Assembly: GCA_903926075.1 (NCBI GenBank) | Contig: CAIYHQ010000052.1 | Location: 1 to 61,412, forward strand | Reading direction: 5' to 3' | DNA: 61,412 nucleotides | Source: an uncultured Methanomicrobiales archaeon | GTDB lineage: Archaea > Halobacteriota > Methanomicrobia > Methanomicrobiales > Methanospirillaceae | In this document: positions 2,543-17,533 of the stretch, piece by piece | Position numbering within the stretch: position 1 is the stretch's first letter | Layout of the letters: each line of letters opens with the position of its first letter | Notes under the pieces: generated by a model | What the model was told of the DNA's origin: nothing | Seen by the model: only the letters and a program-made list of their open reading frames with translations | Databases searched by the model: none | Made by a program: the position numbers and the translations under genes

Positions 2543-3967
2543 ATGAAAAGAAATTCAATTTTGTTTTTAGTATGTTTTATATGCATGTTAATGGTTATCC
2601 CGGCAGTAGTTTCGGGAGCACCCCCGACACTGGTTGCGAACAACATAGGTAAAATCTCAGGATTAAATCTTACCTTGGCAACTCCAACGATGAAAATATT
2701 GAAGCCACAAACGATAACTGTGATATCAGATTGTCAAAAATGCAATAACAACTGTGATTTAAATGCCGTCAATTATTCCGCATATGCCGGTTGTAAAGAA
2801 TATTGCGAATTTGTCTACGGTACCTGCCAGAGCCTTCCGATAACTCCTGAAAATTGCATTCAATGCAACAATCAATGTAATGCACACTCAATGGTAGACA
2901 ATGACAGATTTGCTTTTGCTCAGTGTAGGGAGAAGTGTTCTGCAACTTTTGGAAGTGAATGTGGTACCAATAAATATTGGACACCTCTTACATGCCCTGA
3001 CTGCCAGAATAACTGTATTGGGTTAACAGGAAATGACGAGACTACATGTCTGCAGGACTGTGCAAATAAATTCGGGGACGCTAGTTGCAATATCAATTAT
3101 TTGAATTACACGATTGCCACAGTAACATCTAAATACACTGGAAAAACAATCAAGACTATTCCACAAATCACAAAAAAACAGTATCCAACCACACTTCCAA
3201 CGACGATAAGATTTAAACCACAAACGTTATCATTGCCAGTAGATTGTCAGGATTGTTATATTAAGTGCGATCGCGATCTCCTGCCTAATCAGTTGTATAG
3301 GACTTGCAGGCAATATTGCCTGGCACTCCATGGGACCTGCCTGAACCCCCCGGTAACACCTCTAAATTGTCTTCAATGCCAGGATCAGTGTTCTATGAAT
3401 TTAAGTGTAAAAAATGACAGAAATGCTTTTGTCCAGTGCAGAGAGAAATGCTCGGCATCTTATGGAAGTGAATGTGAGACCAATACATATTATTCACCGG
3501 TTTCATGCCCTGACTGCCAGAATATGTGCACTGGGTTAACTGGAAATGATAAAACAGTGTGTCTACAGAACTGTGTGAATAAATTTGGGGAAGCCAGTTG
3601 CAATATTTACACTATAGGTTACACTTTTGTCGCTGCTACTCCTGAATACCCTGATAAGACGATCCAGATTATTCCACAAATCACAAGTCAACAGTATCCA
3701 ACCCTTAATTTACCTGTTGACAGAATTATTGGAGATAATACGGGTGGGCGGACAGTCCAGAATCAGCCCGCTTCTACGCCAGTTTTACCAACAATTAACA
3801 GGGGTATATTCATTGGAGGTGGGGACCAGTTGAAACCTCAGACACAGATAGTCAGTAATTCAAATTTTGGGACAATCGGACGAGTGTTTATGTCAAACGT
3901 GAGTACTGGAAACGTGACCCGCAATGCTACATCTGTTGTTGTAAACACAACAATGACAAAGAAGTAA
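2543..3967 (+). CDS. Secreted cysteine-rich repeat protein
   Basis: A 474-residue protein with a signal peptide (basic start, hydrophobic residues 5-24, AxG-like cleavage near 26). The mature part has a tandem duplication, residues about 64-215 and 235-386. Each copy has three modules of the form C-x2-C-x3-C-x(10-15)-C-x3-C-x(6-8)-C. The modules fall at 64-95, 105-140, 151-182, 235-266, 276-311 and 322-353, giving 36 cysteines. The last 90 residues are Cys-free, Thr/Asn-rich and have N-glycosylation sequons. The cysteines could form disulfides or bind metal; I do not recognise a named family. The ATG is preceded by gagggaga (2531-2538). A T-rich stretch after the stop (about 3982-4010) may terminate transcription. 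Confidence 0.8.
   Translation: MKRNSILFLVCFICMLMVIPAVVSGAPPTLVANNIGKISGLNLTLATPTMKILKPQTITVISDCQKCNNNCDLNAVNYSAYAGCKEYCEFVYGTCQSLPITPENCIQCNNQCNAHSMVDNDRFAFAQCREKCSATFGSECGTNKYWTPLTCPDCQNNCIGLTGNDETTCLQDCANKFGDASCNINYLNYTIATVTSKYTGKTIKTIPQITKKQYPTTLPTTIRFKPQTLSLPVDCQDCYIKCDRDLLPNQLYRTCRQYCLALHGTCLNPPVTPLNCLQCQDQCSMNLSVKNDRNAFVQCREKCSASYGSECETNTYYSPVSCPDCQNMCTGLTGNDKTVCLQNCVNKFGEASCNIYTIGYTFVAATPEYPDKTIQIIPQITSQQYPTLNLPVDRIIGDNTGGRTVQNQPASTPVLPTINRGIFIGGGDQLKPQTQIVSNSNFGTIGRVFMSNVSTGNVTRNATSVVVNTTMTKK
2732..3700 (+). repeat. Tandem internal duplication of a hexacysteine-module triplet
   Basis: Unit 1 is about 2732-3187 and unit 2 about 3245-3700 inside the Cys-rich gene. They share long matching peptides such as CREKCSA, GSEC, CPDCQN, GLTGND, NKFG and ASCNI in the same order, as well as clear DNA similarity. 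The duplication has diverged most in the first module of each unit. Confidence 0.75.
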
Positions 3968-4098
3968 AGTAATTGAAAAATTCTTTTTTTTTCATTTATT
4001 TATTTTGCATAATTATTTCTCGAATTTCCACATGGAGGGAACGAAATCAAACTGAAAGAATATTAAAATCGAGTGTAAATAAGATAGAGGAAATAATT

Positions 4099-4578
4099 AT
4101 GAAAATTTGTTGTATATTTCATTCATATTCCGGGGTAACCCGTAACGTCTGCATAAAACTTAAGAACGAATCAGGTTCTGACCTATTCGAGGTTAAACCC
4201 CTGAACGAATACTCAAAACTGACTGCTTATACAAAGGGATGCTTACGAGCCAGAAAAGGAGAGAAAGACAGTATAGACCATGAGTCAATTGATATTTCGT
4301 CCTACGACCTTGTTATTATCGGGACACCCGTCTGGGCATGGAAAACAACGCCAGTTATTAACGCAGCTGTTAATGCATTAGAAGGAGGTGAAGGAAAAAA
4401 GGCAATAATATTTGCCACATGCGGAGGTCAACCCGGAGAGTCACTTAGAATACTTAAAAAAGCCGTCGAAGAAAAAGGGCTGACGGTTATTGGTGAAGTA
4501 ATGATGACAAAAAATGATATCAATGAAAAGACGGAACAACTGGTAAAATTAGTAAAAGATACGGCGAGTAATTTATAA
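4099..4578 (+). CDS. Small flavodoxin-like protein
   Basis: A 159-residue short-chain flavodoxin. The start MKICCIFHSYSGVTRNV carries the FMN phosphate-binding loop SYSGVTRN. The segments VIIGTPVWAWKTTPVI and ATCGGQPG match the flavin-ring loops of flavodoxin_1/4-like proteins. The frame is open from 3973, but the ATG at 4099 has a purine-rich site (gatagagg, 4083-4090) ahead of it and gives the family N-terminus, so I start there. It lies 28 bases before a PqqD-like gene and just upstream of a radical SAM gene. A role as electron donor for reducing the [4Fe-4S] cluster is plausible but inferred. A general redox role is equally compatible. Confidence 0.85.
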   Translation: MKICCIFHSYSGVTRNVCIKLKNESGSDLFEVKPLNEYSKLTAYTKGCLRARKGEKDSIDHESIDISSYDLVIIGTPVWAWKTTPVINAAVNALEGGEGKKAIIFATCGGQPGESLRILKKAVEEKGLTVIGEVMMTKNDINEKTEQLVKLVKDTASNL

Positions 4579-4606
4579 ATAAGAGACATATCTTTATAAG
4601 ATAGAG

Positions 4607-4939
4607 GTGAATGGCAGTCTTATAAACTATAATAAACCCATCCAAAACCCTTCTGTGTTCTCACGCCCTATCTTTGATGACAATATTCTTCTTGTAAACT
4701 GTGATACAGGCGCATCACTTGCACTCAATAGTACAGGGAAACTTATCTGGAGTTTGTTTGATGGCAAAAGGACTGAGATGGAGATAGTTGCAAAGGTTTG
4801 TGAGAACTTCAAAAATGTTCCGGATAATGTCTCTCTTGATGTTACTTCCCTGATCTCGGCACTTTCAGAACAAGGTTTTATCGGGTTTGAGATAGATGCA
4901 GATTCCCTGGAAAATGGGAGGCTGAATTATCACGGATAG
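4607..4939 (+). CDS. Stand-alone PqqD-like (RRE) domain protein, copy 1
   Basis: A 110-residue PqqD-family protein. The family signature is visible as D-G-A-S-x-A-L-N-x-T-G-K-x-I-W about residues 33-48, then an acidic helix and a C-terminal two-helix part ending in GFIGFEID. PqqD-like domains bind the leader peptide of ribosomally made, modified peptides and present it to the modifying enzyme. Start is GTG at 4607; the site ahead of it is weak. It is closely related to the protein at 6404-6700 on the other strand (both have NPSV then FDDN then LVN-DTG-SL-LN). The precursor-like peptide begins 68 bases downstream. Confidence 0.85.
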   Translation: MNGSLINYNKPIQNPSVFSRPIFDDNILLVNCDTGASLALNSTGKLIWSLFDGKRTEMEIVAKVCENFKNVPDNVSLDVTSLISALSEQGFIGFEIDADSLENGRLNYHG

Positions 4940-4972
4940 ATATGAAAGTTTGATAGACAGGGATATATTTCG

Positions 4973-5007
4973 AAATGCTTTTATTTGAATGAGATATATA
5001 TACATTT
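4973..5007 (+). promoter_or_regulatory. 5' flank of precursor peptide 1, shared with precursor 2
   Basis: The 30 bases between an aaatg word (4973-4977) and the ATG match 17 of 30 aligned positions in front of the second peptide (8795-8829), at identical spacing. The word cttttattt (4978-4986) sits about 26 bases before the ATG and could be a TATA element of a leaderless mRNA; no clear ribosome site is present. The conservation may simply reflect gene duplication. Confidence 0.35.
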
Positions 5008-5130
5008 ATGTCTGAAAAAAAAGATGTTTTGCCTGAATACCAGCCACCACAAGTTATGAAGATTAATGACCTGAACAACGGAAGTGGTTTTCAACCTTGT
5101 GGAAACGGTTCTGGAGAGCACACAACTTGA
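5008..5130 (+). CDS. Candidate RiPP precursor peptide 1
   Basis: A 40-residue peptide that begins with MSEKKDVLPEYQPP. Its leader KDVLPEYQPPQV-x-KI-x-DLN-x-GSG (residues 5-27) is shared almost exactly with the peptide at 8830-8961. After GSG at 25-27, the core is FQPCGNGSGEHTT, with one Cys at 31. Both peptides keep C-[GN]-N-G-S in the core although the rest differs. A conserved leader with a variable Cys-containing core, between PqqD-like genes and a radical SAM/SPASM gene, is the classic layout of a RiPP precursor. The leader Tyr-x-Pro-Pro-x-Val-x-x-Ile-x-x-Leu resembles leaders read by PqqD domains. The modification is unknown. The protein would be easy to miss because of its length. Confidence 0.75.
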   Translation: MSEKKDVLPEYQPPQVMKINDLNNGSGFQPCGNGSGEHTT

Positions 5131-5135
5131 TTACC

Positions 5136-5157
5136 ACCCATCTATAACGATGTGGGT
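5136..5157. other. Small hairpin between converging precursor and radical SAM genes
   Basis: Acccatc (5136-5142) pairs with gatgtgggt (5149-5157) around a 6-base loop, with a small bulge. It sits just after the stop of precursor 1 and 106 bases beyond the stop of the convergent radical SAM gene. No T-run follows on either side, so a terminator role is uncertain. Confidence 0.25.
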
Positions 5158-5262
5158 CCGATCACCACCAAATCATCATGCAACCTTTTTTGTTTTTCAA
5201 TAATAACCATTTTTGGTCTTGGGTATCTCAATAAAATTGAATCATTAATATTTTCAAATTCA

Positions 5263-6417
5263 CTATCGGAGCCTGTTCTTCGGAAATACTCCCTTATTAA
5301 AAGCCTCATTACATAGTCTCTGAGGAGAGACGAGGGCCCCTCCATTAACATAGTTGTCAGCTACACAACCAGTCCGGCAGGACTGTGCATGGATACATGA
5401 GCCACAAATTCCAGGATATTCTTTAATATTTGCTAGATCTGAACGCAACTTTAGGAGAACAGGGTGAGAAATCCATATATCCCTGATACTGTCTTTTCCA
5501 AGAAGTCCGTAAACCAGTTCTGAAATCGTCTCACCTATGCCACAGAGAGCTACTTCGCCTGTTCCCAGAATTCCAAGTATACTACTGACACCACAATCGC
5601 ATACTTTTCCTTTTGTCCTCCACAGCTCTTTATATGGCGTAAGAGCCATGGGCAAAGTTAAAATTAGCGGAATTGGAGATATTGGCCTGAGCTTATCATT
5701 GACATATGAGCCAAGTGCAAGATACCCTTCAAGGTCAAACGTCTCTCCATTCTCATACATATTAAGACCCCTGCCGGCAGCAGTAACCGGATTAAACTTA
5801 ACGGAAGCAGCATTGTGTTCAGCTGCGAGCATGACAAGTTCTTTCATTCGCCCCATATTTCCCAGGTGAACAGACATGATGACCTGACAGTTGGTATATC
5901 CAGCATCAACAATTGAATCAAGTCCGGAAATAGTTCTGTGAAAGGCACCCTTTACCCCGCGAAAAGCATCATGCTCAGCAGCAATAGGAGAATCGAGGCT
6001 CACCGATATGAAACCCATCTTCGTCTTTTCTTTAAGATAACGGGCAATATCTGGTGTAATGAGTGTCCCATTTGTCTCCATAGAAAGAAAAAGCCCTTCG
6101 GAAGATAACATATCAACGACTTTCAGGAACTGATGATGGAGCATTGGCTCACCACCGGTTAATTTAATTGTGCAAAGACCAAGTGACTTCGCTTCGATGA
6201 CTGCTTTATGTAGAGCATCAGGATCAACAGTTGTACCAGAAACCGCTTTCTCTTTTCCTGAAAATTTTGGGTTAACCCAACAATGCCTACAACGAAGATT
6301 ACAACTTGATGAGAGGTAAACATATAAGGATTTTAATGGTGGGACCCCTTCAGGCAGATTAAGGTCATTTGTCATTACAGAACCAGAATCAGGATAAGGT
6401 AGATCACAAAGTGTCAA
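5263..6417 (-). CDS. Radical SAM/SPASM peptide-modifying enzyme
   Basis: A 384-residue protein with the radical SAM cluster motif C39-x3-C43-x2-C46 (SCNLRCRHC) and the SAM-binding GGEP at 88-91. The C-terminal SPASM region has C273/C275, G-x4-C292, then C338-x2-C341-x5-C347-x3-C351 and C369, enough for two auxiliary [4Fe-4S] clusters. Such enzymes make thioether or C-C crosslinks or epimerise residues in peptides. TTG at 6417 has agaggg about 6 bases ahead and overlaps the PqqD-like gene by 14 bases, so the two are probably co-translated. ATG at 6375 is the alternative. The nearest substrates are the two small peptides at 5008 and 8830. Which bond it makes cannot be read from the sequence. 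Confidence 0.9.
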   Translation of the reverse strand: MTLCDLPYPDSGSVMTNDLNLPEGVPPLKSLYVYLSSSCNLRCRHCWVNPKFSGKEKAVSGTTVDPDALHKAVIEAKSLGLCTIKLTGGEPMLHHQFLKVVDMLSSEGLFLSMETNGTLITPDIARYLKEKTKMGFISVSLDSPIAAEHDAFRGVKGAFHRTISGLDSIVDAGYTNCQVIMSVHLGNMGRMKELVMLAAEHNAASVKFNPVTAAGRGLNMYENGETFDLEGYLALGSYVNDKLRPISPIPLILTLPMALTPYKELWRTKGKVCDCGVSSILGILGTGEVALCGIGETISELVYGLLGKDSIRDIWISHPVLLKLRSDLANIKEYPGICGSCIHAQSCRTGCVADNYVNGGALVSPQRLCNEAFNKGVFPKNRLR

Positions 6418-6700
6418 TAAAACCCTCTGCTGAAAGTGTTAAAATCACTGAATTAACATCTTGTGCAACCGAATCCGGTACGTTCTTAAATTCTTTGCAG
6501 ACCTGCGCGACTATCTCTTCTTGTGTTAATTTGCCATCTAACAAGTTCCAGATAACCTTTCCTGATTTATTCAGTACGAGAGATTTACCAGTATCTCCGT
6601 TTACGAGCACTAGATTGTCATCAAAGGTTAGATGTGACATTACAGAAGGGTTTTTATTAAATTTTTCATGTGACCTGATTTCATAATTCACGGATATCAC
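6404..6700 (-). CDS. Stand-alone PqqD-like (RRE) domain protein, copy 2
   Basis: A 98-residue PqqD-family protein with the signature D-T-G-K-S-L-V-L-N-K-S-G-K-V-I-W and a C-terminal helical part ending ILTLSAEGFIDTL. It is translated just ahead of the radical SAM gene and overlaps it by 14 bases, so it is the most likely leader-binding partner of that enzyme. Start is GTG at 6700; a second in-frame GTG lies 9 bases later. It is a close paralogue of copy 1 at 4607-4939 in inverted orientation; the pair flanks the first precursor and the radical SAM gene. Confidence 0.87.
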   Translation of the reverse strand: MISVNYEIRSHEKFNKNPSVMSHLTFDDNLVLVNGDTGKSLVLNKSGKVIWNLLDGKLTQEEIVAQVCKEFKNVPDSVAQDVNSVILTLSAEGFIDTL

Positions 6701-6766
6701 TTTAATGTACAGCTGTCATTTATATGAAGTACTTATCTTTCCAGAGGACGACCTGTTCTGCAATAT

Positions 6767-8605
6767 ATGGGAAATTCACCACATTCAGAATTTAATCTCC
6801 ATGAGATGCTGACATCTTCAAAAGCCGAAATTCCACGGGCAATAAGACTAGTCTTTAAATTCACGCCCGGGTGGACAATTGCAAACATCTTTCTTATGAT
6901 AATTCTCGGTCTTTTACCACTCGCATCCCTGTATATAACCAAACTCCTTGTTGATACGGTTACTGCCGGAATCACTGCCAGTGATAAAACAGCTGTTTCA
7001 ACAGAACTTTTTATTGTTATCATTGCAGCAGTGGTTATATCGCTTCTCACTGCTTGCTTTAGAGCAATTTCTACTTATGTGACTGAAGTCCAGTCTCTTG
7101 AGATGACAGATGGGATCTCTGATCTCATTCATAGCCAGTCTATCGCACTTGATCTCGCGTACTATGAAAACCCAGAATATCAGGATACCTTACACAGGGC
7201 TCAGACTGAAGGAGCCTCCCGACCGGGAAAGATAGTAAATGATCTGGTGCTGATTATTCAAAATTGCATCTCTATCATTGCTGTTGGATCTCTCATCCTT
7301 TCATTCTCAGCCCTTGCAGGTATTATTCTCATCGCATCTGCGGTTCCAGCCATGATTGTCAGGTTATGGTATTCAAGGCAACTATATTTTCTAAAACAAG
7401 ATCAAACTGAATTGAACCGTAAAAGTTTTTATTATCACATCATGCTCACGCATTCACATTATGCCAAAGAGAACCGACTTTTTTCCCTCGGAACATTCTT
7501 CAGAGAGTTGTACAACAGCACTCAGGATTTAATCAGGATCTCAAAATTAGCAATTTCCCGGTCAAAAGCATTTTGGGAGGTAATTACTCAGGGTTTTGTT
7601 ACTGCTGCAGTGTTTGGTTCATTTACTGTCATCGCAATTATGACACTTAATGGAAAGATAACCCTGGGTGACATGGTAATTTACTTTATGGGTTTTCAGA
7701 TGTGTGTAGGGTACATTCAGACTATATTTTCAAGTCTTAATACGCTCTATGAGGACCATCTTTTTTTAAGGGATTTTTTCAAGTTTCTTGATATAAGACC
7801 ATTAATTAGAGCACCCGATAACCCAATACCACTCCCTGAAGACTCGATAGAGAAAATTCAATTAAATTCTATTTGTTTCACTTATCCAGGAGCACATACC
7901 CCGGCATTGGAGGACATTTCAATTACCATCAGGAAAGGGGAAGTAATTGCTTTTGTAGGCGAAAATGGTGCTGGAAAAAGCACTCTTATTAAATTGCTGT
8001 GTAGACTTTATCTTCCTGATTCCGGGTCTATTACAGTTGATAATATAGATCTTAACTACATTGATCCAGAAATATGGAGACGGCGGCTATCAGTACTTTT
8101 TCAGGATTATATTCGGTACCAACTGACCATAGAAGATAATATCAGGGTAGGGGATATCGGGCGTCCGGATGGTCCGGAAAACGTTGAAAAATCTGCTCAT
8201 AAATCAGGAGCAGACAAAACAGTGGAACGACTTCCAAACGGTTACCAGACGGTGTTAGGGAAATTTTTTAGTGGGGGTCATGATATAAGCACTGGTGAAT
8301 GGCAAAAAATTGCATTATCCCGGGCTTTTTTCAGGGATGCTGAATTTATTTTTCTCGATGAACCTGCAAGTTCGCTTGATGCTCTTGCCGAAGCAGAGAT
8401 TTTTCAAAAGTTCAGGGAGGTTATTCAGAATAAAACCGCTATTATTATCAGTCACCGCTTTTCTACCGTTCAAATGGCAGATCGAATCTATGTTATCGAA
8501 TACGGAAAACTGATTGAATTTGGCTCACATACTGATCTCATGATATTAAACGGACGATACGCTGAAATGTTTAAAATTCAATCTGATCCATATATTGAAA
8601 AATAA
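6767..8605 (+). CDS. ABC exporter, fused membrane and ATPase domains
   Basis: A 612-residue half-transporter. The N-terminal part has about six membrane helices (about residues 40-320). The ATPase part has Walker A GENGAGKST near 398-406, Q-loop FQDY, signature STGEWQK in place of LSGGQ near 508, Walker B FIFLDEP near 530 and the H-loop SHR. There is no C39 peptidase domain at the N-terminus. It would work as a homodimer in the cell membrane. It diverges from the PqqD/radical SAM pair with a 66-base gap and lies ahead of the second precursor, so export of the modified peptide is the obvious guess. The Ser-Thr-Gly signature is a known variation in peptide/lipid exporters but deviates from the consensus. 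Confidence 0.92.
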   Translation: MGNSPHSEFNLHEMLTSSKAEIPRAIRLVFKFTPGWTIANIFLMIILGLLPLASLYITKLLVDTVTAGITASDKTAVSTELFIVIIAAVVISLLTACFRAISTYVTEVQSLEMTDGISDLIHSQSIALDLAYYENPEYQDTLHRAQTEGASRPGKIVNDLVLIIQNCISIIAVGSLILSFSALAGIILIASAVPAMIVRLWYSRQLYFLKQDQTELNRKSFYYHIMLTHSHYAKENRLFSLGTFFRELYNSTQDLIRISKLAISRSKAFWEVITQGFVTAAVFGSFTVIAIMTLNGKITLGDMVIYFMGFQMCVGYIQTIFSSLNTLYEDHLFLRDFFKFLDIRPLIRAPDNPIPLPEDSIEKIQLNSICFTYPGAHTPALEDISITIRKGEVIAFVGENGAGKSTLIKLLCRLYLPDSGSITVDNIDLNYIDPEIWRRRLSVLFQDYIRYQLTIEDNIRVGDIGRPDGPENVEKSAHKSGADKTVERLPNGYQTVLGKFFSGGHDISTGEWQKIALSRAFFRDAEFIFLDEPASSLDALAEAEIFQKFREVIQNKTAIIISHRFSTVQMADRIYVIEYGKLIEFGSHTDLMILNGRYAEMFKIQSDPYIEK

Positions 8606-8645
8606 ATTCCATATGTTATTGGTTAAGGAATGGCATTGATGACAA

Positions 8646-8672
8646 GCAAATTATATAGACTTTATAATTTGC
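8646..8672. repeat. Perfect 10-bp inverted repeat, 7-base loop
   Basis: Gcaaattata (8646-8655) is perfectly complementary to tataatttgc (8663-8672). It lies 40 bases after the ABC exporter stop and about 158 bases before the start of precursor 2. It could be a weak A/T-rich terminator hairpin, or a dyad operator. The region 8606-8829 otherwise holds no credible gene apart from a possible GTG extension of the peptide (from 8752). Confidence 0.5.
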
Positions 8673-8794
8673 GGGTGCATAAGGAAAATTGGATAGTATA
8701 CAGCAGTTTTTATGATAATTTCAACAATGAAGCACTTAAATTTGTTTACATGTGTTTGGACGGGATAAATGTTTGGCAGAACTGAATTGTTGCA

Positions 8795-8829
8795 AAATGT
8801 TTATCCGTGAGTGCGGTATACAGATACAT
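8795..8829 (+). promoter_or_regulatory. 5' flank of precursor peptide 2, shared with precursor 1
   Basis: The word aaatg at 8795-8799 is followed by 30 bases to the ATG, the same spacing as before precursor 1 (4973-5007), with 17 of 30 matching positions. The segment tgtttat (8798-8804) is a possible TATA element. This shared flank supports choosing the ATG at 8830 over upstream GTG 8752. Confidence 0.35.
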
Positions 8830-8961
8830 ATGCCTATCGATAAAGATGTTTTACCTGAATATCAACCCCCACAAGTCACGAAGATTTATGACCTGAACAA
8901 GGGGAGCGGCGGGAGTATTGGTACTGAGTGTAATAACGGTTCTAATGACGTTAAAAGCTAA
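8830..8961 (+). CDS. Candidate RiPP precursor peptide 2
   Basis: A 43-residue peptide. Residues 5-16 (KDVLPEYQPPQV) are identical to precursor 1, followed by KI-x-DLN-x-GSG at the same positions. The core GSIGTECNNGSNDVKS has one Cys at 34 and keeps the C-x-N-G-S word of the first peptide. The frame is open from a GTG at 8752, which would add a Cys-rich N-terminal extension; alignment with precursor 1 favours the ATG at 8830. It lies between the ABC exporter and the third PqqD-like gene. Two precursors with a shared leader and different cores suggest one enzyme acting on several products. Confidence 0.75.
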   Translation: MPIDKDVLPEYQPPQVTKIYDLNKGSGGSIGTECNNGSNDVKS

Positions 8962-9067
8962 TCTTAAGACGGGATCAACGCTACCATCAATTCTGGTAAT
9001 ACAGTGATACAACAATTATAGGTGTATTATAGATGAATCACAAAAAATTTTTATTTTTTAGACGTCC

Positions 9068-9346
9068 ATGATCTCAGGTCGGGTTATTGTTAATCCTGAT
9101 ATATCATGCAGAGTCGAGTCTGATGACTATGCTCTCTTATTCAACCCTGACACCGATAATACAGTACTCATTGACCATTCAGGACTTTTAATCTGGAGAT
9201 TCATTGATGAGCCTAGGAGCATCAATGATATTATATCATATTTGAAGGGCTGTTTTTCAAACTGTCCTGACATTGATACCCTTGAGCAGGATATTATCAA
9301 ATATCTTAGTGACCTTATTCCTGAATTTGTTCTAGAGATCTTCTGA
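9068..9346 (+). CDS. Stand-alone PqqD-like (RRE) domain protein, copy 3
   Basis: A 92-residue PqqD-family protein with LLFNPDTDNTVLIDHSGLLIW as the signature region and a helical C-terminal half containing two Cys (CFSNC). It is more distant from the other two copies than they are from each other. Its stop overlaps the start of the kinase/peptidase fusion (the ATG at 9346 lies in the TGATG junction), so the two are translationally coupled. That suggests it delivers the leader to the fusion protein rather than to the radical SAM enzyme. No ribosome site precedes the ATG; an A/T-rich stretch about 20-25 bases upstream fits a leaderless mRNA. Confidence 0.82.
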   Translation: MISGRVIVNPDISCRVESDDYALLFNPDTDNTVLIDHSGLLIWRFIDEPRSINDIISYLKGCFSNCPDIDTLEQDIIKYLSDLIPEFVLEIF

Positions 9347-10893
9347 TGCAAAAAAATGTAATTTTTTCCTCACCCTTTTTCAGCCTTGGATTTGCAGACG
9401 GTCAGAAATTTATTCTTCATCCAACCGACAACCAGGCTGCAGAAATAGTCAACATGATGTCAGATGTGATGCATCTCTCACCAGGGACTGTCGGGCGGGA
9501 GATCTTTGTTTGTGTATCTGATAAAAAAGAGTTTCAGATTAACAACCTTAAAAATGGCGGGCCTTTGGTTTGCTGCCTCCTTCCAGGGACAAACCCAAAT
9601 ATTAGAGAAATTCAGATGTCCGAACTCGCAAGGTACATAGCTGCACAGATGATACCCGGCGGAGGTATGCTTATCCATGGTGGGCTTATAAGGCATGGGG
9701 GACAGGGATTTATTCTTGCTGCTCCGGGAGGGACAGGAAAAACAACCGCATGCAATCGGCTTCCAGAATCATGGGATGCATTGAGTGATGATGCTACCAT
9801 GGTCGTACAGACAGATGAGGGTAGATATCTTGCTCATCCATGGCCCACATGGAGCCGTTTTCTCGATGGTGGTTCGGGTGGAGACTGGAATGTTGAAGAG
9901 GCAGTGCCCCTCTCATCCATATTTTTCTTACAGCGTTCAGAAATTGATAATGTTGAGCCACTATCAAAGGTAAATGCAACTGCATTTCTCATGGAGTCAA
10001 TACGACAGGTTATGTTAACTCCAAGGATTGGAAAACTGCATTCTGATAGTATTGAAGCTATCCTGAAAATGAGTTTCCCTCATATAGAAAGACTAATACT
10101 GTCGATACCAGTCCAGATTCTTCAGATAAGTTTATCTGGGAATTATTGGGAAGGGATTTTTCAGAGTCTTAAAAAAACAGAAGTTCCAAAACATCCTGCT
10201 CCTTTATTTTCACAGATTAAGCATATAGATAAAAATAGTAACATATTTAATGACCAGAGCATTCCGGTTATTTATTCAGGCCCAAGCATGAATCCTTCCT
10301 TTTTGGATTCTGATCTTTTAGAGGTGGTTCCATATGGAAGGAGACCATTTAAGGTTGGAGATGTAATCTACTTTTTCTCTCCTGTCAAAGAGACCCATAT
10401 AATCCATAGAATTGTTAGCATATCTGAAAACGGAGTTCAGACACGAGGGGACAATAACCCTGCTCCTGACCCTGAACTTGTATTGCCAGGTGAAATTATA
10501 GGAAGAGTAATAGCGGTATCAAGAACATCCGGAACATGGAAAGTAACAGGTGGAACAAGCGGGAGGATTCTTCAGGCGTTTCTTCTGGCCCGGAAGTCAA
10601 TACTCGCTAAAATAGATTATATCATATTGAGTAAAAATCCAGTCGGAGTTTTTGTGCACATCATCAGATGTTGCTTCGCATATATAATGAGACCTAGATA
10701 TGTACTATTTTCTACACGATATTCATTTTTCTTAAAATTATACATAGGTAATCGTTTGATTGGAGATTACAATACCATTAGGATGACCTGGATGATCAGA
10801 TCACCATTCTCTCTTTTCATAGATAGAACTCAACTGCCCACATTAAAACCTCCTCTTCCGAAAATTAGATTTTTAAGGGAACTGGGTCATTAA
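9346..10893 (+). CDS. HPr kinase-like domain fused to an S26-type peptidase
   Basis: A 515-residue two-domain protein. Residues about 1-275 resemble HPr kinase-like proteins of RiPP loci: a Walker A loop APGGTGKTT at 126-134 (Lys132), then ALSDDATMV with the usual acidic pair. Residues about 305-400 look like an S26 signal-peptidase core: SGPSMNP with Ser314, GDVIYF, then H354 in HIIHR and D369 in RGDNN. That is the Ser/His/Asp set of archaeal/ER signal peptidases, without the bacterial Lys. There is no obvious membrane anchor in front of the peptidase. The C-terminal 115 residues are unassigned. Neighbours imply action on the precursor, for example phosphorylation or leader removal. The first half recalls ScmC of the cassette named SynChlorMet; that is from memory. 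Confidence 0.8.
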   Translation: MQKNVIFSSPFFSLGFADGQKFILHPTDNQAAEIVNMMSDVMHLSPGTVGREIFVCVSDKKEFQINNLKNGGPLVCCLLPGTNPNIREIQMSELARYIAAQMIPGGGMLIHGGLIRHGGQGFILAAPGGTGKTTACNRLPESWDALSDDATMVVQTDEGRYLAHPWPTWSRFLDGGSGGDWNVEEAVPLSSIFFLQRSEIDNVEPLSKVNATAFLMESIRQVMLTPRIGKLHSDSIEAILKMSFPHIERLILSIPVQILQISLSGNYWEGIFQSLKKTEVPKHPAPLFSQIKHIDKNSNIFNDQSIPVIYSGPSMNPSFLDSDLLEVVPYGRRPFKVGDVIYFFSPVKETHIIHRIVSISENGVQTRGDNNPAPDPELVLPGEIIGRVIAVSRTSGTWKVTGGTSGRILQAFLLARKSILAKIDYIILSKNPVGVFVHIIRCCFAYIMRPRYVLFSTRYSFFLKLYIGNRLIGDYNTIRMTWMIRSPFSLFIDRTQLPTLKPPLPKIRFLRELGH

Positions 10894-10955
10894 TATCACT
10901 ATTTTAAACGATTTACTCAGATATCAGGTTAAAAAAGACCCATTGGTATCCTGAC

Positions 10956-12188
10956 TCAAAGGTAATCAATAAAACTCCACCAGCGCCGGATATGGGCAAG
11001 GTAAGGATCCCAACTGCTTTCTGAACGTCGATATTCGATCATCAGATGCGAAGGAGGCAGGATAAAACGCCCACAATATTTCAGTTTCTCTACAAATCCG
11101 GGCAACCTTTTCAAACGGAGATGGAATACTGCGAGAAATGAGGTCTCCTGAATTGCAGCATACTTCCACATTCGTTCTTCCCATTCTGATGGAGAAGGCC
11201 ATGTCGAGAAATCGGAAAATTTTGAAGGTAAAGTATTTCCAGACCAGAGAATAGCTTCTTTGAGAGCAATCTCAACAGGAATTCGGGTATGATGTGTAAC
11301 TGAAGATCTTTCGAGGGATTTCCAGTCGTCATTTATAGTGAAATCCCGTATCAATCGTGAAATATCCACTATCCAGTCCAGTCGCCGGTGGTTATGAAGT
11401 ATAACATTGTGGAACACCAGGAACTGGAGATGATCTTCGGGATGCAGGGTATCAAAGATAAGATCTTTGGATTGGACATGAATTTTTCTTTTCAGGGAAT
11501 TATCTAACCAGTTTTCTGGAAAATATCCAAAGCCAAAGTCTGCCATCCAGTGAATTTCAACCATTACTCCGATTTTTTCAGGTAAAAATGCCTGGTGGTG
11601 GAACGCATAGCGGGAAATGTGGTATGTAAGGGCAGTACTGGAATACCCGAGTGTTCCCATCACCTTTTCACAATGTAAAAAATCATCTGGTCTAATTAGA
11701 AGATCGATATCAGTCGACTGGCGCATTGCCAGGTCAGGGTATATCGTTCTTCCAAGAGCTGGACCTTTGACCAGCAGAACTGGAATTCCTGCTTCCTGAA
11801 ACTTCAATAGGATCTGGCGAATCTGATCTCCCATAAAAATGTTTCGGGCTGTACCTGCAAAGAGGGCATTTTTAAAAACAGACAGGGTTTTTTCAGGTGG
11901 CTGGAACTCTTTATGCCATGACAAAATATGCGAAGCTATGAAGGGAATTATCAAATGCGAACCAATAATTTTGATAAAATCATCCCATTCTTCAGGTCCG
12001 CACATCGGAGGCGTACAGGGAATATCTCTTATCGCACCGATCAAGTAAATAATGAGATCGTCACGGATTGAAAAAAGTGCATTGGGTGGATTTCCCATTA
12101 GTGGGTAATTTGCATGCCATTTTTGAATAAAGGCAGGTAATGTGGTGAGATCATCAGGCTGCGCATGTGATTCAAAAACAGTTTTCAT
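10956..12188 (-). CDS. PF14907-type nucleotidyltransferase-fold protein
   Basis: A 410-residue protein of the NTP_transf_5 family. The core LLVKGPALGRTIYPDLAMRQSTDIDLLIRPDDF carries the D-x-D pair (DID) expected for nucleotidyltransferase metal binding and the K-G upstream of it. Members are common beside PqqD-like and HPr-kinase-like genes in lasso-peptide and other RiPP loci and in polysaccharide loci, with unproven substrates. It converges on the fusion gene and is transcribed from the tRNA side. The region between the stops (10894-10955) has no further gene. It may add a nucleotide to the peptide or to a sugar; this is inference. Confidence 0.85.
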   Translation of the reverse strand: MKTVFESHAQPDDLTTLPAFIQKWHANYPLMGNPPNALFSIRDDLIIYLIGAIRDIPCTPPMCGPEEWDDFIKIIGSHLIIPFIASHILSWHKEFQPPEKTLSVFKNALFAGTARNIFMGDQIRQILLKFQEAGIPVLLVKGPALGRTIYPDLAMRQSTDIDLLIRPDDFLHCEKVMGTLGYSSTALTYHISRYAFHHQAFLPEKIGVMVEIHWMADFGFGYFPENWLDNSLKRKIHVQSKDLIFDTLHPEDHLQFLVFHNVILHNHRRLDWIVDISRLIRDFTINDDWKSLERSSVTHHTRIPVEIALKEAILWSGNTLPSKFSDFSTWPSPSEWEERMWKYAAIQETSFLAVFHLRLKRLPGFVEKLKYCGRFILPPSHLMIEYRRSESSWDPYLAHIRRWWSFIDYL

Positions 12189-13603: not shown

Positions 13604-16600
13604 CTACATAAAATCTGCGAGTCCCAGCTGTTGTTCCTTTGGTTGCCCAAAGGTAGATTCAATAGCGAGAAGTATCACTTCAACCCTTTGTTTCGTATAG
13701 AGCGAAACCTTGTATTTTGTACAGATATCGCGTGACATCTCAAGATATTTTTTAACCGACCCTTCATGTACAGTAGGTATGATATTTCCGTTGCATTTTG
13801 AACATTTTCCTGCAAGAGGGACCCTCCTGTAACTTGTGTTACATTTAGAACAGCGAAACTTCTGCTTTGAGAATGCTGAAAGGTTGCCCATAAGATCGCG
13901 GATAAAATGCGTGTTAAGAACTCTTTCTGCAACATCATCTACATCTACAGCCCGGATTTTCTCGGCAAGCGAAAGCTCAGCCTCAAGTTTCTCAAGCATT
14001 GACTCCATCTGGGTATACATCGATTCTTTTGGACCGAGCGAAATATCTGACGTCTCATGAGTATACGAGAAACCTTCAACGGACTCCGGTTTACCAAGCC
14101 TGTGATCAACACGATCAATCAGAGCCTCAACATCTTTTGGATGGGCGTAAAGAAGGGCTTTTTTGTAAAGTTCAAGTGGGTAAAACCTGCATACATCAAT
14201 ATTATGGCTCTCTTTGTCGATCTCTTTTGGATCTATACGGGTTGTGAGCACAAGGGGAGCATCCATAAGCCCGCCACGCGTTTCAGGCAGAAATGCCCTT
14301 GAGAAGTTAAGGAGCCCGTCGAGGAGCAGCATAATACAGTCCTCGTCGCCGTCACACTGGCCGGTAAATACCCCGTTAGCAAGAACTGTATGTTCTTCTG
14401 CAACAGTCAGGCAAAACACCCTCTCCTCTGTTGCCGGTACTATTTCTCTCTTTTTTATACGATCAGAGATTACTGCATTTCCCACAAAAACCGGAACTGA
14501 ATCCCCTTCATTCACTTCGATTGCCCGGACTTTCCTAAGGTAACTGAGATCCCACACAAGCATGGCATGGTCAGGTGTGACAATAAGCACATTCCCCCTG
14601 CCGGTCTCAAACCTGTACAGTCCTTCCGGTGCTTTATGTACTGAAACCGAGGTTATTCGCCTGATATGCACAATACCGCCGGTATCGACTGTCCGGGTAT
14701 AGTATGGACGGACCGGGTCTGAATAATATGTACCGAGCCGGTCTAACCCGGGCCTCGCAAGATCAAAGTTCTCAAGCACGAACCTGCGGATCTGGATTTT
14801 TTTCCAGACAGAACCATCATAGACTTCAATTTCGGTATCTCCAAAAAAACAGTTCCTTCGTTTTGCAGCATGAAAGAAAGGGTGGGCATAACCGACGTTA
14901 GCAGTACAAAAACCGATAATACGTGATAAAACTCCTGCACTTGTATGTGGTGCAAGACCTATTACAAGGTGTCCAAGGAGGTCATCGCGGTTTTCCACGT
15001 TGTAAAATGGAGGGAGAGAGTAGACCTTTTCCAGAAGTTCATCAATAAAGTGGGCTACCTGAATCAGGTACTCGGCACAGTGATCCGAGAGAAGGATATC
15101 CTGTGTCCTAAGTTCAAGGACCTGGTCTTCATGTGTAAGTGGGACACCATCTGTATCCACCTCATATCCAAGGTTCAACAAGGTTTCTACCCGGACTCCC
15201 GTCTCTTTTGGAGTGAAATGTGTAAGAGGCAGATCGATCATATCATATCTGACAGTTCCATCTTTAAAGACATAGACCTCATGCTTTGCCCTTAAAATTC
15301 CTTTGCTGATATCCTCAACAGCCTTTTCACGAGAAGTAAGACCTTTAACACCCTTTACGAGCGGTACCATCTCCTCTCTGAACCCAAGTTTTTCCATTAT
15401 AGAGAGATATTCAGATTTAAGGTTGAAGATTAGGTTCTGACTTGAAGAGAGAGGAATTCCACACAGATCACAAGTTTCACCTCTCCCTTCCCTGCCACAC
15501 TTCTGGCAGCTGAAAACAGGGTCAGTATGAGAATTACAATCACACAGATTTCTGAATGTAATTTTTCCGCATGAAGGACACCTCCTGCGTCCTGTCTGGA
15601 TGGTAAGAGTGCCTCCGTCTTTCAAAACATTAGTGGTGAAGGTCTTTGCCTCCTGAAATGATCTCCTCGAACCTCCTGCTTCACCAAGTGGAAAGAGGAC
15701 ATGTGGTGGAGGGTTCATCTTTCGTGGCCTGGATTTTCCAGGTCTCCCCATTCTTCCGCCAATCCTGGTCCCTGATTTTGAACGGAGTTTTATTCCTGAA
15801 AGTTCAGTGATATAGAGTAGAGGATCAGATTCACTTGTAGGGGGGAGGGATCTTCTTTGATTTAAATTTCCATTAAGACCAAGACACTCAAGAAATACAA
15901 TATAATTACTTATACAGATCTTGTCTACTGAGATAGTATGAGGCAAAAGGATCTCTTCAATAATTTCCTTGATATCCCGTTCATAAGGGAGTATTAACGT
16001 ATTACCTTCCAATTTCCCTTTTTCTGAAACAAACGAGTGCAGGGACTGTATTTGCTCAATCGTTAGATCGTCCCAGAGATATGTATAGTCAGGGTGAAGA
16101 TAGCCACCATTTTTAGTAAGAGCGAGTGCAGCTTCTTCAGTTTCAGGCTGCTCACCTTCACACTCCTGACTCCACCATTCATGGCAGTATACAGAGGGTA
16201 CTAAAGGATGGTTATTCTCAAGAAATTCCCCAAAACTGATAAGTAATTCCCCTACATCAAGAATGCACTCAACATTACCGGAAATTTCCTTTGCAGACTT
16301 CGGGTCATCAACTCTCCTGACCTCTCCTCCCTTGAGCCTCACGGTGGGACCCTCAATAGAATCAACAGGAACTATCCCTGCTGCTTTTCCGGGCCTCTCT
16401 ATCTTCATCTGAGTCCCTACTGCAAGAAAGTCTCCAAGAATATGCATGGTTGCCGGGTTCAGCCCAGCTGCCGCATATCCTGTATTGCGTGACCGGCCAT
16501 ACCTGAGCCGGAAACCACCTTTTCTCATGGGATATGCAAAAACCGGCCTCCCACCGATGAGATCATCAAGGTACTTGTATTTCGGTTTGATTGAGACCTT

Positions 16601-17458
16601 CTCATCACTTCCGGCAGGCATTGCCCCTGCAACAAATGTGTCAAGCCAGTCCCAACCGTCGAGGCCAAGCTTTTTCACATGTTTCTGAACTTTTGGCGCT
16701 TTTAGTGCAATCCCTTCGCCTATTACGAGAGCCATTCCTCCCCTGATTGCATTTGTCTCTACCCTGGCAAGGTCCCGGTAACCACTGACCTCTGCCTTTT
16801 CAGTCCCTTCTCCATCTACACAGACCGGACAATTTCTTACAATCAGGCGGATTTCATCATCATTTGGGAGATACTGGAGTTTTGTTACGGTATTGTATTG
16901 TTTGATCTCCTCAATGTAACGCTCGACTTCTTCATCACGCGGTTTATATGCAGCAAGGCCAAGACCCCGGCGCACATAATCACCCACTAGCACTGACAGA
17001 GCCTGTGCAGTACCACCTGCACTCCGTATGGGTCCGGCATAAAAAATCTTCAGATATTCAGTCCCATCGTCATTTTTACCCAGGCTTACCTTTGCTATTC
17101 CTTCCGTCGGAGCTGCTACTACTCCTTCTGTCAGAATTGCCATTGCCGTCCTTATAGCATGGTCAAGGGTCTCAACTGTTGAGGTGCTCCCAAACCTCCT
17201 TGCAACAAAATCATCCCCTATCCGGAGTGCAACTTCTTCGCGGGAGATAGTTGCTTCAAGTTCCCTGATACGGGCCGATATACCTTTAATTCCAAGAAGT
17301 GCCTCAACTCTGTCTGCAAGGTCAGTCGCAACAGGTATTTCAACTTCCGTACGTGGGTCAAGTCCTCTGGACCGGGCTGATTTTGCAACAGAATACGCAG
17401 CATCCAACCCAATATTGAGTCTCTTCTGATACCCAACCATAGACTCTGACCAATCCAT
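13604..17458 (-). CDS. polC: DNA polymerase II (family D) large subunit DP2, with intein
   Basis: The catalytic subunit of the euryarchaeal replicative D-family polymerase, partner of DP1 encoded at 54102. The frame is open to 17506 (1300 residues), but the family N-terminus starts at the Met in [14 protein letters not shown], so I use ATG 17458 (1284 residues, 1119 without the intein). Visible signs: KFRCSKCN and CSKCN zinc pairs near the C-terminus, further zinc-finger pairs CPSCGK, CQKCGR and CDLCG mid-protein, and the conserved block [24 protein letters not shown], which is split by the intein at CDGDED. That block holds catalytic Asp residues. A HEAT-repeat gene lies just upstream and a cysteine desulfurase downstream, all on the same strand. 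Confidence 0.97.
14357..14851 (-). other. Pol-II mini-intein (165 residues)
   Basis: The intein runs from Cys1 (residue 870 from the 17458 start) in [13 protein letters not shown] to Gln165 in NGVFTGQ, followed by extein Cys of CDGDED. Block A (CFFGDTEI), block B with TPDHAML (T..H), and block F/G with [21 protein letters not shown] are all visible. There is no LAGLIDADG endonuclease. The last residue is Gln instead of Asn, as known for other Pol-II inteins. It interrupts an essential active-site block of DP2, so it must splice for the polymerase to function. Confidence 0.92.
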
Positions 17459-17533
17459 ACCTAGCCTTTCCTTCGGGAGGGAATTTATCTTTATGGAATA
17501 TCCCATACGCAGTACTTGACAGAAAAAAGTAGA

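Follow-up and report, generated by a model that had tools for sequence, protein, structure and literature searches.

The open reading frame at positions 9346-10893 of the forward strand of the window, i.e. the whole 61,412-nucleotide stretch of DNA from an uncultured Methanomicrobiales archaeon that was analysed here, encodes an HPr-kinase-like kinase fused to a soluble S26 peptidase. We consider it likely that the two enzymes form a soluble unit that matures the peptide of a SynChlorMet-type RiPP pathway, by phosphorylating the precursor and removing its leader. Carrying this reading are the folds of both halves, the conservation of their active sites, the lack of a membrane anchor, the conserved linkage of the genes, the occurrence of fusions in both orders and a family of precursor peptides, all of which were observed. 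The fusion gene lies in the following cassette (coordinates, strand, product):

3973..4578, +, flavodoxin (longest ORF), which might supply the radical SAM enzyme with electrons; putative cassette member
4607..4939, +, PqqD-family chaperone, ScmD-like
5008..5130, +, precursor peptide 1, MSEKKDVLPEYQPPQVMKINDLNNGSGFQPCGNGSGEHTT
5263..6417, -, radical SAM enzyme, ScmF-like (334 bits, below the curated cut-off of 400)
6404..6700, -, PqqD-family chaperone, ScmD-like
6767..8605, +, ABC exporter, permease-ATPase
8830..8961 (longest ORF from 8752), +, precursor peptide 2, MPIDKDVLPEYQPPQVTKIYDLNKGSGGSIGTECNNGSNDVKS
9068..9346, +, PqqD-family peptide chaperone, ScmD-like by profile matches
9346..10893, +, fusion protein of 515 aa: ScmC-type HPr-kinase-like kinase, soluble S26 peptidase and C-terminal tail
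10956..12188, -, nucleotidyltransferase-like protein, PF14907, present in many related cassettes

The stop of the third PqqD gene and the start codon of the fusion overlap by one base, and precursor peptide 2 more likely starts at 8830 than at 8752. Outside the cassette, 2543-3967 (+) encodes a secreted-looking protein with a Cys-rich module in two copies and no Pfam match, and 13604-17506 (-) encodes the large subunit of DNA polymerase D (DP2), whose catalytic domain is interrupted by a small intein; the intein ends before a Cys and gives a weak Pfam intein match.

The cassette resembles SynChlorMet (SCM; NCBIfam TIGR04248-TIGR04252, i.e. ScmA, C, D, E and F) in its ScmC kinase, which scores above the cut-off, its ScmD-like PqqD proteins, its ScmF-like radical SAM enzyme and its precursors. 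It differs in that the kinase is fused to a peptidase, ScmE is missing and the ScmF and ScmD matches remain below the curated cut-offs, so that the combination of ScmD, ScmE and ScmF beside ScmC is not found in the window. The cassette is thus a reduced one, with three PqqD genes (44-57 bits against the ScmD cut-off of 100) and one ScmF-like radical SAM gene; ScmE is absent from the window, and a search of the genome gave no match above 77 bits. The ScmA model (TIGR04252) did not match the window precursors, and the precursor of one relative reached 14.3 bits against a cut-off of 35. No SCM model for a peptidase, exporter or nucleotidyltransferase surfaced in the profile scans. Delta proteobacterium NaphS2, which we take to be among the genomes on which the SynChlorMet models were founded, has this kinase gene and this S26 peptidase gene as well, with an overlap of 4 bases.

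Within the fusion gene, the following parts and residues were distinguished:

9346..10191, +, kinase domain, residues 1-282, PEPCK/HprK fold
9721..9747, +, P-loop APGGTGKTT, residues 126-134 (Lys132 in 91/91 homologous kinases)
9787..9792, +, Asp148-Asp149 of the HprK-type active site (Asp148 in 91/91; Asp149 in 85/91, Glu in the other 6)
10192..10239, +, disordered linker of 16 aa, residues 283-298 (pLDDT under 50)
10243..10545, +, S26 catalytic core, residues 300-400, LepB/SEC11 fold
10285..10287, +, Ser314, predicted nucleophile (70/70 homologues)
10405..10407, +, His354, predicted general base (70/70)
10450..10452, +, Asp369 of the GDNN motif, which begins at Gly368 (69/70)
10468..10470, +, Asp375, by the Asp spacing in SEC11 the likelier candidate for the essential Asp (70/70)
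10546..10860, +, conserved tail, residues 401-505, two helices and four strands, common to this peptidase branch

A first, sequence-only reading had proposed the joining of an HPr-kinase-like domain to an S26 signal-peptidase core, and both halves are borne out by profile and by fold, with the P-loop, Ser314, His354 and Asp369 sitting at the positions given there. Residues 62-273 match the ScmC model TIGR04249 with 143.9 bits (E 6.2e-42, cut-off 125), the weak match to HprK_rel_A also falling in this half. The model of archaeal signal peptidases, TIGR02228, aligns to residues 305-390 with 57.7 bits (E 1.2e-15, cut-off 51.85). Pfam Peptidase S26 (PF10502) stays below its gathering score (15.9 against 22.9 bits); the fold matches even so. 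AlphaFold modelled the whole protein with a pLDDT of 84 and the C-terminal half alone, from a 70-row alignment, with a pLDDT of 88. In structure comparisons, including Foldseek, the kinase half resembles PEPCK (Z 14.0) and HPr kinase, and the C-terminal half resembles E. coli LepB (Z 12.3, 97 residues, 2.0 Å) and human SEC11C (Z 10.2), the latter matches spanning the catalytic core and not the tail. This conserved tail (about residues 400-505) comes in addition to what the first reading had described. The frame is uninterrupted across 515 codons, and a frameshift or assembly artefact, which like a lack of S26 similarity would have spoken against that reading, was ruled out, since the fusion also occurs as an unbroken frame in other assemblies, among them that of Methanospirillum stamsii Pt1, and in bacteria. 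A viral, phage or plasmid origin was likewise rejected, as no relative was found among viral contigs, phages or plasmids.

The active site of the kinase half is that of an HprK-type enzyme, i.e. with the His, the P-loop GK[ST] and the Asp pair in place. His111 (conserved in all 89 homologues covering that position), Lys132 and Asp148-Asp149 agree with the motif of the lasso-peptide kinase BsfK, which consists of a His, three Gly, Lys, Ser and Asp-Asp (PMC10368454).

A search of relatives located the fusion in the window's own genome, in G038 and in Methanospirillum stamsii (G011), and G049 harbours the kinase and the peptidase as adjacent but separate genes two times. Wider searches added a fusion in Methanoregula sp. 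OWC_0057 (G511), a partial copy in G497, and separate genes in G392, G205, G303, G077, G086, G462 and others. When 84,980 species genomes were scanned, 80 named loci emerged, many of them from metagenome-assembled genomes (M. stamsii Pt1 being a named strain). Kinase-peptidase fusions account for 10 of these 80 (WOR-3, KSB1, Deltaproteobacteria, Methanomicrobiales and others) and peptidase-kinase fusions for eight (Syntrophaceae, Verrucomicrobia, Pelobacter, Aminicenantes, Acidobacteriota and Lentisphaerae), and most of the remaining loci encode the two as separate, often overlapping genes. There are 36 split adjacent pairs, 28 with the kinase and eight with the peptidase first, and 22 of the 36 overlap when starts are taken from the longest ORFs. 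The opposite fusion orders imply at least two fusion events; beyond that the trees disagree, with five changes for the kinase-peptidase order on the kinase tree and one on the peptidase tree (support 90).

The recurrent order of the locus is PqqD, ScmE, ScmF, precursor, kinase, peptidase, ABC exporter and PF14907 nucleotidyltransferase, both radical SAM proteins (ScmE and ScmF) being present in relatives such as L100, L140 and NaphS2 (L173). Where at least 4 kb of sequence was available on either side of the kinase, the peptidase was present in 29 of 36 loci. Seven lack it by the threshold used, among them L176, due to its broken genes; elsewhere, some kinases were scored as standing apart only since their contigs end. 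Conversely, two loci of the window's own genome, i.e. L027 (G000:C49, 22-3809) and L028 (G000:C64, 6869-10490), encode a tail-bearing soluble S26 peptidase with an ABC exporter and a PF14907-like nucleotidyltransferase and no kinase, and no YxxP precursor was found beside either of them. Considering these together with the seven kinase loci, the kinase and the peptidase are not strictly interdependent. The same genome has a second RiPP-like locus (L029, G000:C33, 2101-8183; listed together with L030 and L099, with related loci in G025 and G323) consisting of a PqqD protein, a tail-less soluble S26 peptidase and three radical SAM ORFs, one of which (684 aa) ends in a weak ScmC-kinase-like domain.

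Other components of the cassette are fused as well. A PqqD-kinase fusion, confirmed by HMM, was found in Chloroflexota (L147, 8194-9666), and similar ORFs were noted by reading at L151 (1093-2421) and L155 (2523-4250), these three loci belonging to Chloroflexota and Acidobacteriota. In Bacteroidota, the peptidase is fused to the PF14907 protein (L160, 4363-6204). A radical SAM-peptidase ORF in L130 was set aside, as it runs across unknown bases.

Most loci encode precursors with a YxxPxL leader and a Gly/Cys core. A pattern search within the loci (a YxxP leader followed by a Gly/Cys-rich tail, with six clear false matches removed) gave 90 likely precursors, 84 of them with distinct leader starts, and a position matrix built from the 90 found further ones. 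The leader Tyr and Pro are invariant by design of this search, and the Leu at +8 is partly so, the first pattern having asked for a mostly hydrophobic residue; the location of 400 of the 515 core Cys in CxxG and their typical spacing of 9-12 residues were not imposed. A matrix scan of the whole 61-kb window found two peptides only (5008-5130 and 8752-8961), both within the cassette. They share KDVLPEYQPPQVxKIxDLNxGSG and have a single Cys and no repeats.

The leaders also offer a candidate cleavage site. In 44 of the 84 sequences a small residue, i.e. Gly, Ala or Ser, stands both 14 and 16 residues beyond the leader Tyr, where 31.6 such sequences are expected (0/5000 permutations); kinship inflates this excess, which is the strongest among all i,i+2 pairs tried. 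S26 enzymes cleave after small residues at -3 and -1, and a cut after GSG (...DLNKGSG and ...DLNNGSG) is therefore predicted for the window peptides. GxG-like steps are also seen in some precursors of loci without the peptidase (L108). It is conceivable that the peptidase is active and cytoplasmic and cuts at another place instead, either in the repetitive core between CxxG repeats, to give several small products, or at the C-terminus, with another enzyme removing the leader. Many precursors contain 3-9 CxxG units at the above spacing and are rich in Gly, Ala and Ser, and would offer small-x-small steps there too. Yet the same enzyme serves the single-Cys, repeat-free precursors of the window, the covarying small pair lies at one fixed distance from the leader Tyr, and the repeats would provide too many sites, all of which makes such a mode of cutting unlikely.

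For leader removal coupled to phosphorylation, which we prefer, the pathway may be envisaged as follows. The precursor would be held through its YxxPxL leader by the PqqD proteins, while the radical SAM enzyme or enzymes would modify the Gly/Cys core. The ScmC kinase half would then phosphorylate Ser/Thr of the precursor with ATP, as lasso-peptide kinases do. In the cytoplasm, the S26 half would use a Ser-His-Asp mechanism to cut off the leader behind the small-x-small (GxG) step preceding the first core Cys. Export of the product would fall to the ABC protein, and the nucleotidyltransferase may attach a group to the phosphate. Being fused, the two halves would work on one and the same bound substrate, so that its phosphorylation is coupled to the removal of its leader.

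This scheme follows the phosphorylated lasso peptides, such as paeninodin, pseudomycoidin and BsfA. In these pathways a PqqD-like protein binds the YxxPxL leader, an HprK homologue phosphorylates the precursor before the leader is removed, a nucleotidyltransferase, sometimes fused to the B2 protease, adds sugar to the phosphate left by the kinase, and an ABC exporter is present (PMC10368454, PMC8498205). The cassettes described here share with them the YxxPxL leader, a PqqD-type recognition protein, the HprK-like kinase, the nucleotidyltransferase, a leader protease and the ABC exporter. They differ in the Gly/Cys-rich core and in having an S26 peptidase and radical SAM enzymes instead of the B2 transglutaminase-like protease and the lasso cyclase: no B2 protease or asparagine-synthetase-like cyclase was recognised among the scanned neighbours of the fusion (window 3973-12188). 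The S26-nucleotidyltransferase fusion of L160 parallels the B2-nucleotidyltransferase fusions of lasso clusters. The best reading of this analogy is that the S26 module takes the place of the B2 protease; with radical SAM enzymes in the position of the cyclase, the fusion is read as a coupled phosphorylation and leader-removal enzyme.

By the same analogy, the substrate of the kinase is predicted to be the precursor peptide. HPr kinase itself has a regulatory role, with a protein as its substrate, and fusion is also typical of regulatory pairs. The kinase could accordingly phosphorylate the peptidase, PqqD or another protein and so gate the processing of a product that carries no phosphate, although none of the results obtained here favours this over a peptide kinase. 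Against such a role, the HprK homologues of lasso RiPP clusters have the precursor as their substrate (PMC10368454, PMC8498205), the kinase occurs fused to PqqD, and a PF14907 protein often adjoins, the nucleotidyltransferase of pseudomycoidin acting on the phosphopeptide. We therefore hold a purely regulatory kinase to be rather improbable.

As for the peptidase half, the catalytic triad of the first reading stands in Ser314 and His354, both invariant in all 70 peptidase domains, and has to be amended in its third member, which from the alignment is more likely Asp375 than Asp369. The Asp of GDNN aligns with residue 129 of human SEC11C (counted on the alignment), the catalytic Asp of which is presumably residue 134, adjoining Asp135. 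In Methanococcus voltae, we take the essential Asp to be the later one, six residues on, i.e. the counterpart of Asp375. Of the two conserved Asp, archaeal enzymes depend on only one (PMC2913515).

No membrane anchor was detected in the fusion protein, as that reading had also noted: its maximal 19-residue hydropathy is 1.43, compared with 2.34 for a control membrane signal peptidase of a related archaeon (G222), and stand-alone relatives do not exceed 1.94. Stand-alone homologues begin 8-80 residues (median about 20, by longest ORF) ahead of the catalytic Ser, which in most leaves little or no space for an N-terminal anchor. Given also the ATP-dependent kinase in the same chain and the absence of a signal peptide, the peptidase is predicted to be cytoplasmic. 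Its action there on a PqqD-held and possibly phosphorylated peptide, as first suggested, is supported by the cassette, the lasso parallel and the small-x-small step between leader and core.

The enzyme shares the catalytic core, the Ser-His-Asp motifs and the S26 fold with archaeal and ER-type signal peptidases (TIGR02228, Sec11). It lacks their membrane anchor with a non-cytoplasmic active site, is fused or coupled to a kinase, has an extra C-terminal tail and would act on a different substrate. A conventional secretory signal peptidase joined to the kinase by chance, as the TIGR02228 score above the curated cut-off might suggest, is very improbable and was rejected, considering that neither fused nor stand-alone members have a transmembrane segment, that an ATP-dependent kinase shares the chain, that the linkage to RiPP cassettes is constant and that the conserved tail lies outside the part aligned to known signal peptidases. 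TIGR02228 also scores above its cut-off on soluble cassette-linked peptidases of L096, L089 and L173, the automatic naming of which is therefore likely wrong. SodX, the nickel superoxide dismutase maturation protease (TIGR02754), is an S26-type protease that acts in the cytoplasm on an N-terminal leader; the match to it is weak (26.5 bits against a cut-off of 63.25), so that the peptidase is not a member by score, and substrate and partners are others. A dead substrate-binding domain, for which SipA (4n31), a structural match here with a presumably non-catalytic role, would be a precedent, is just as improbable given that Ser, His and Asp375 are invariant in all 70 diverse domains.

The cassette as such is already known, i.e. 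NCBI has named it and made models of the kinase, PqqD, radical SAM and precursor proteins. In the 5.4 million open papers searched, neither SynChlorMet nor its TIGR models turned up, no leader peptidase of the S26 type was reported together with an HprK-like kinase, and neither the peptidase as a core part of the cassette nor the two-way fusions were found described. The leader protease of the cassette may have escaped recognition in part because it scores as signal peptidase I: the 'signal peptidase I' equivalog model TIGR02228 places soluble RiPP peptidases above its cut-off.

Taken together, the kinase-peptidase pair is probably the phosphorylation and leader-removal unit of a large, little-studied peptide family. 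We lean, somewhat more cautiously, towards the view that an S26 peptidase which has left the membrane for the cytoplasm and is paired with an ATP-dependent peptide kinase serves as the dedicated, previously unrecognised leader protease for a broad class of Gly/Cys-rich RiPPs, phosphorylated and modified by radical SAM enzymes, in methanogens and many bacterial phyla. The SynChlorMet cassette thereby gains a candidate protease, a candidate modification, i.e. a phosphate, and a large set of precursors. These candidates are testable, a protein of 515 residues and a peptide of 40 being enough for a first assay, and the phospho-RiPP logic of lasso peptides would be extended to archaea.
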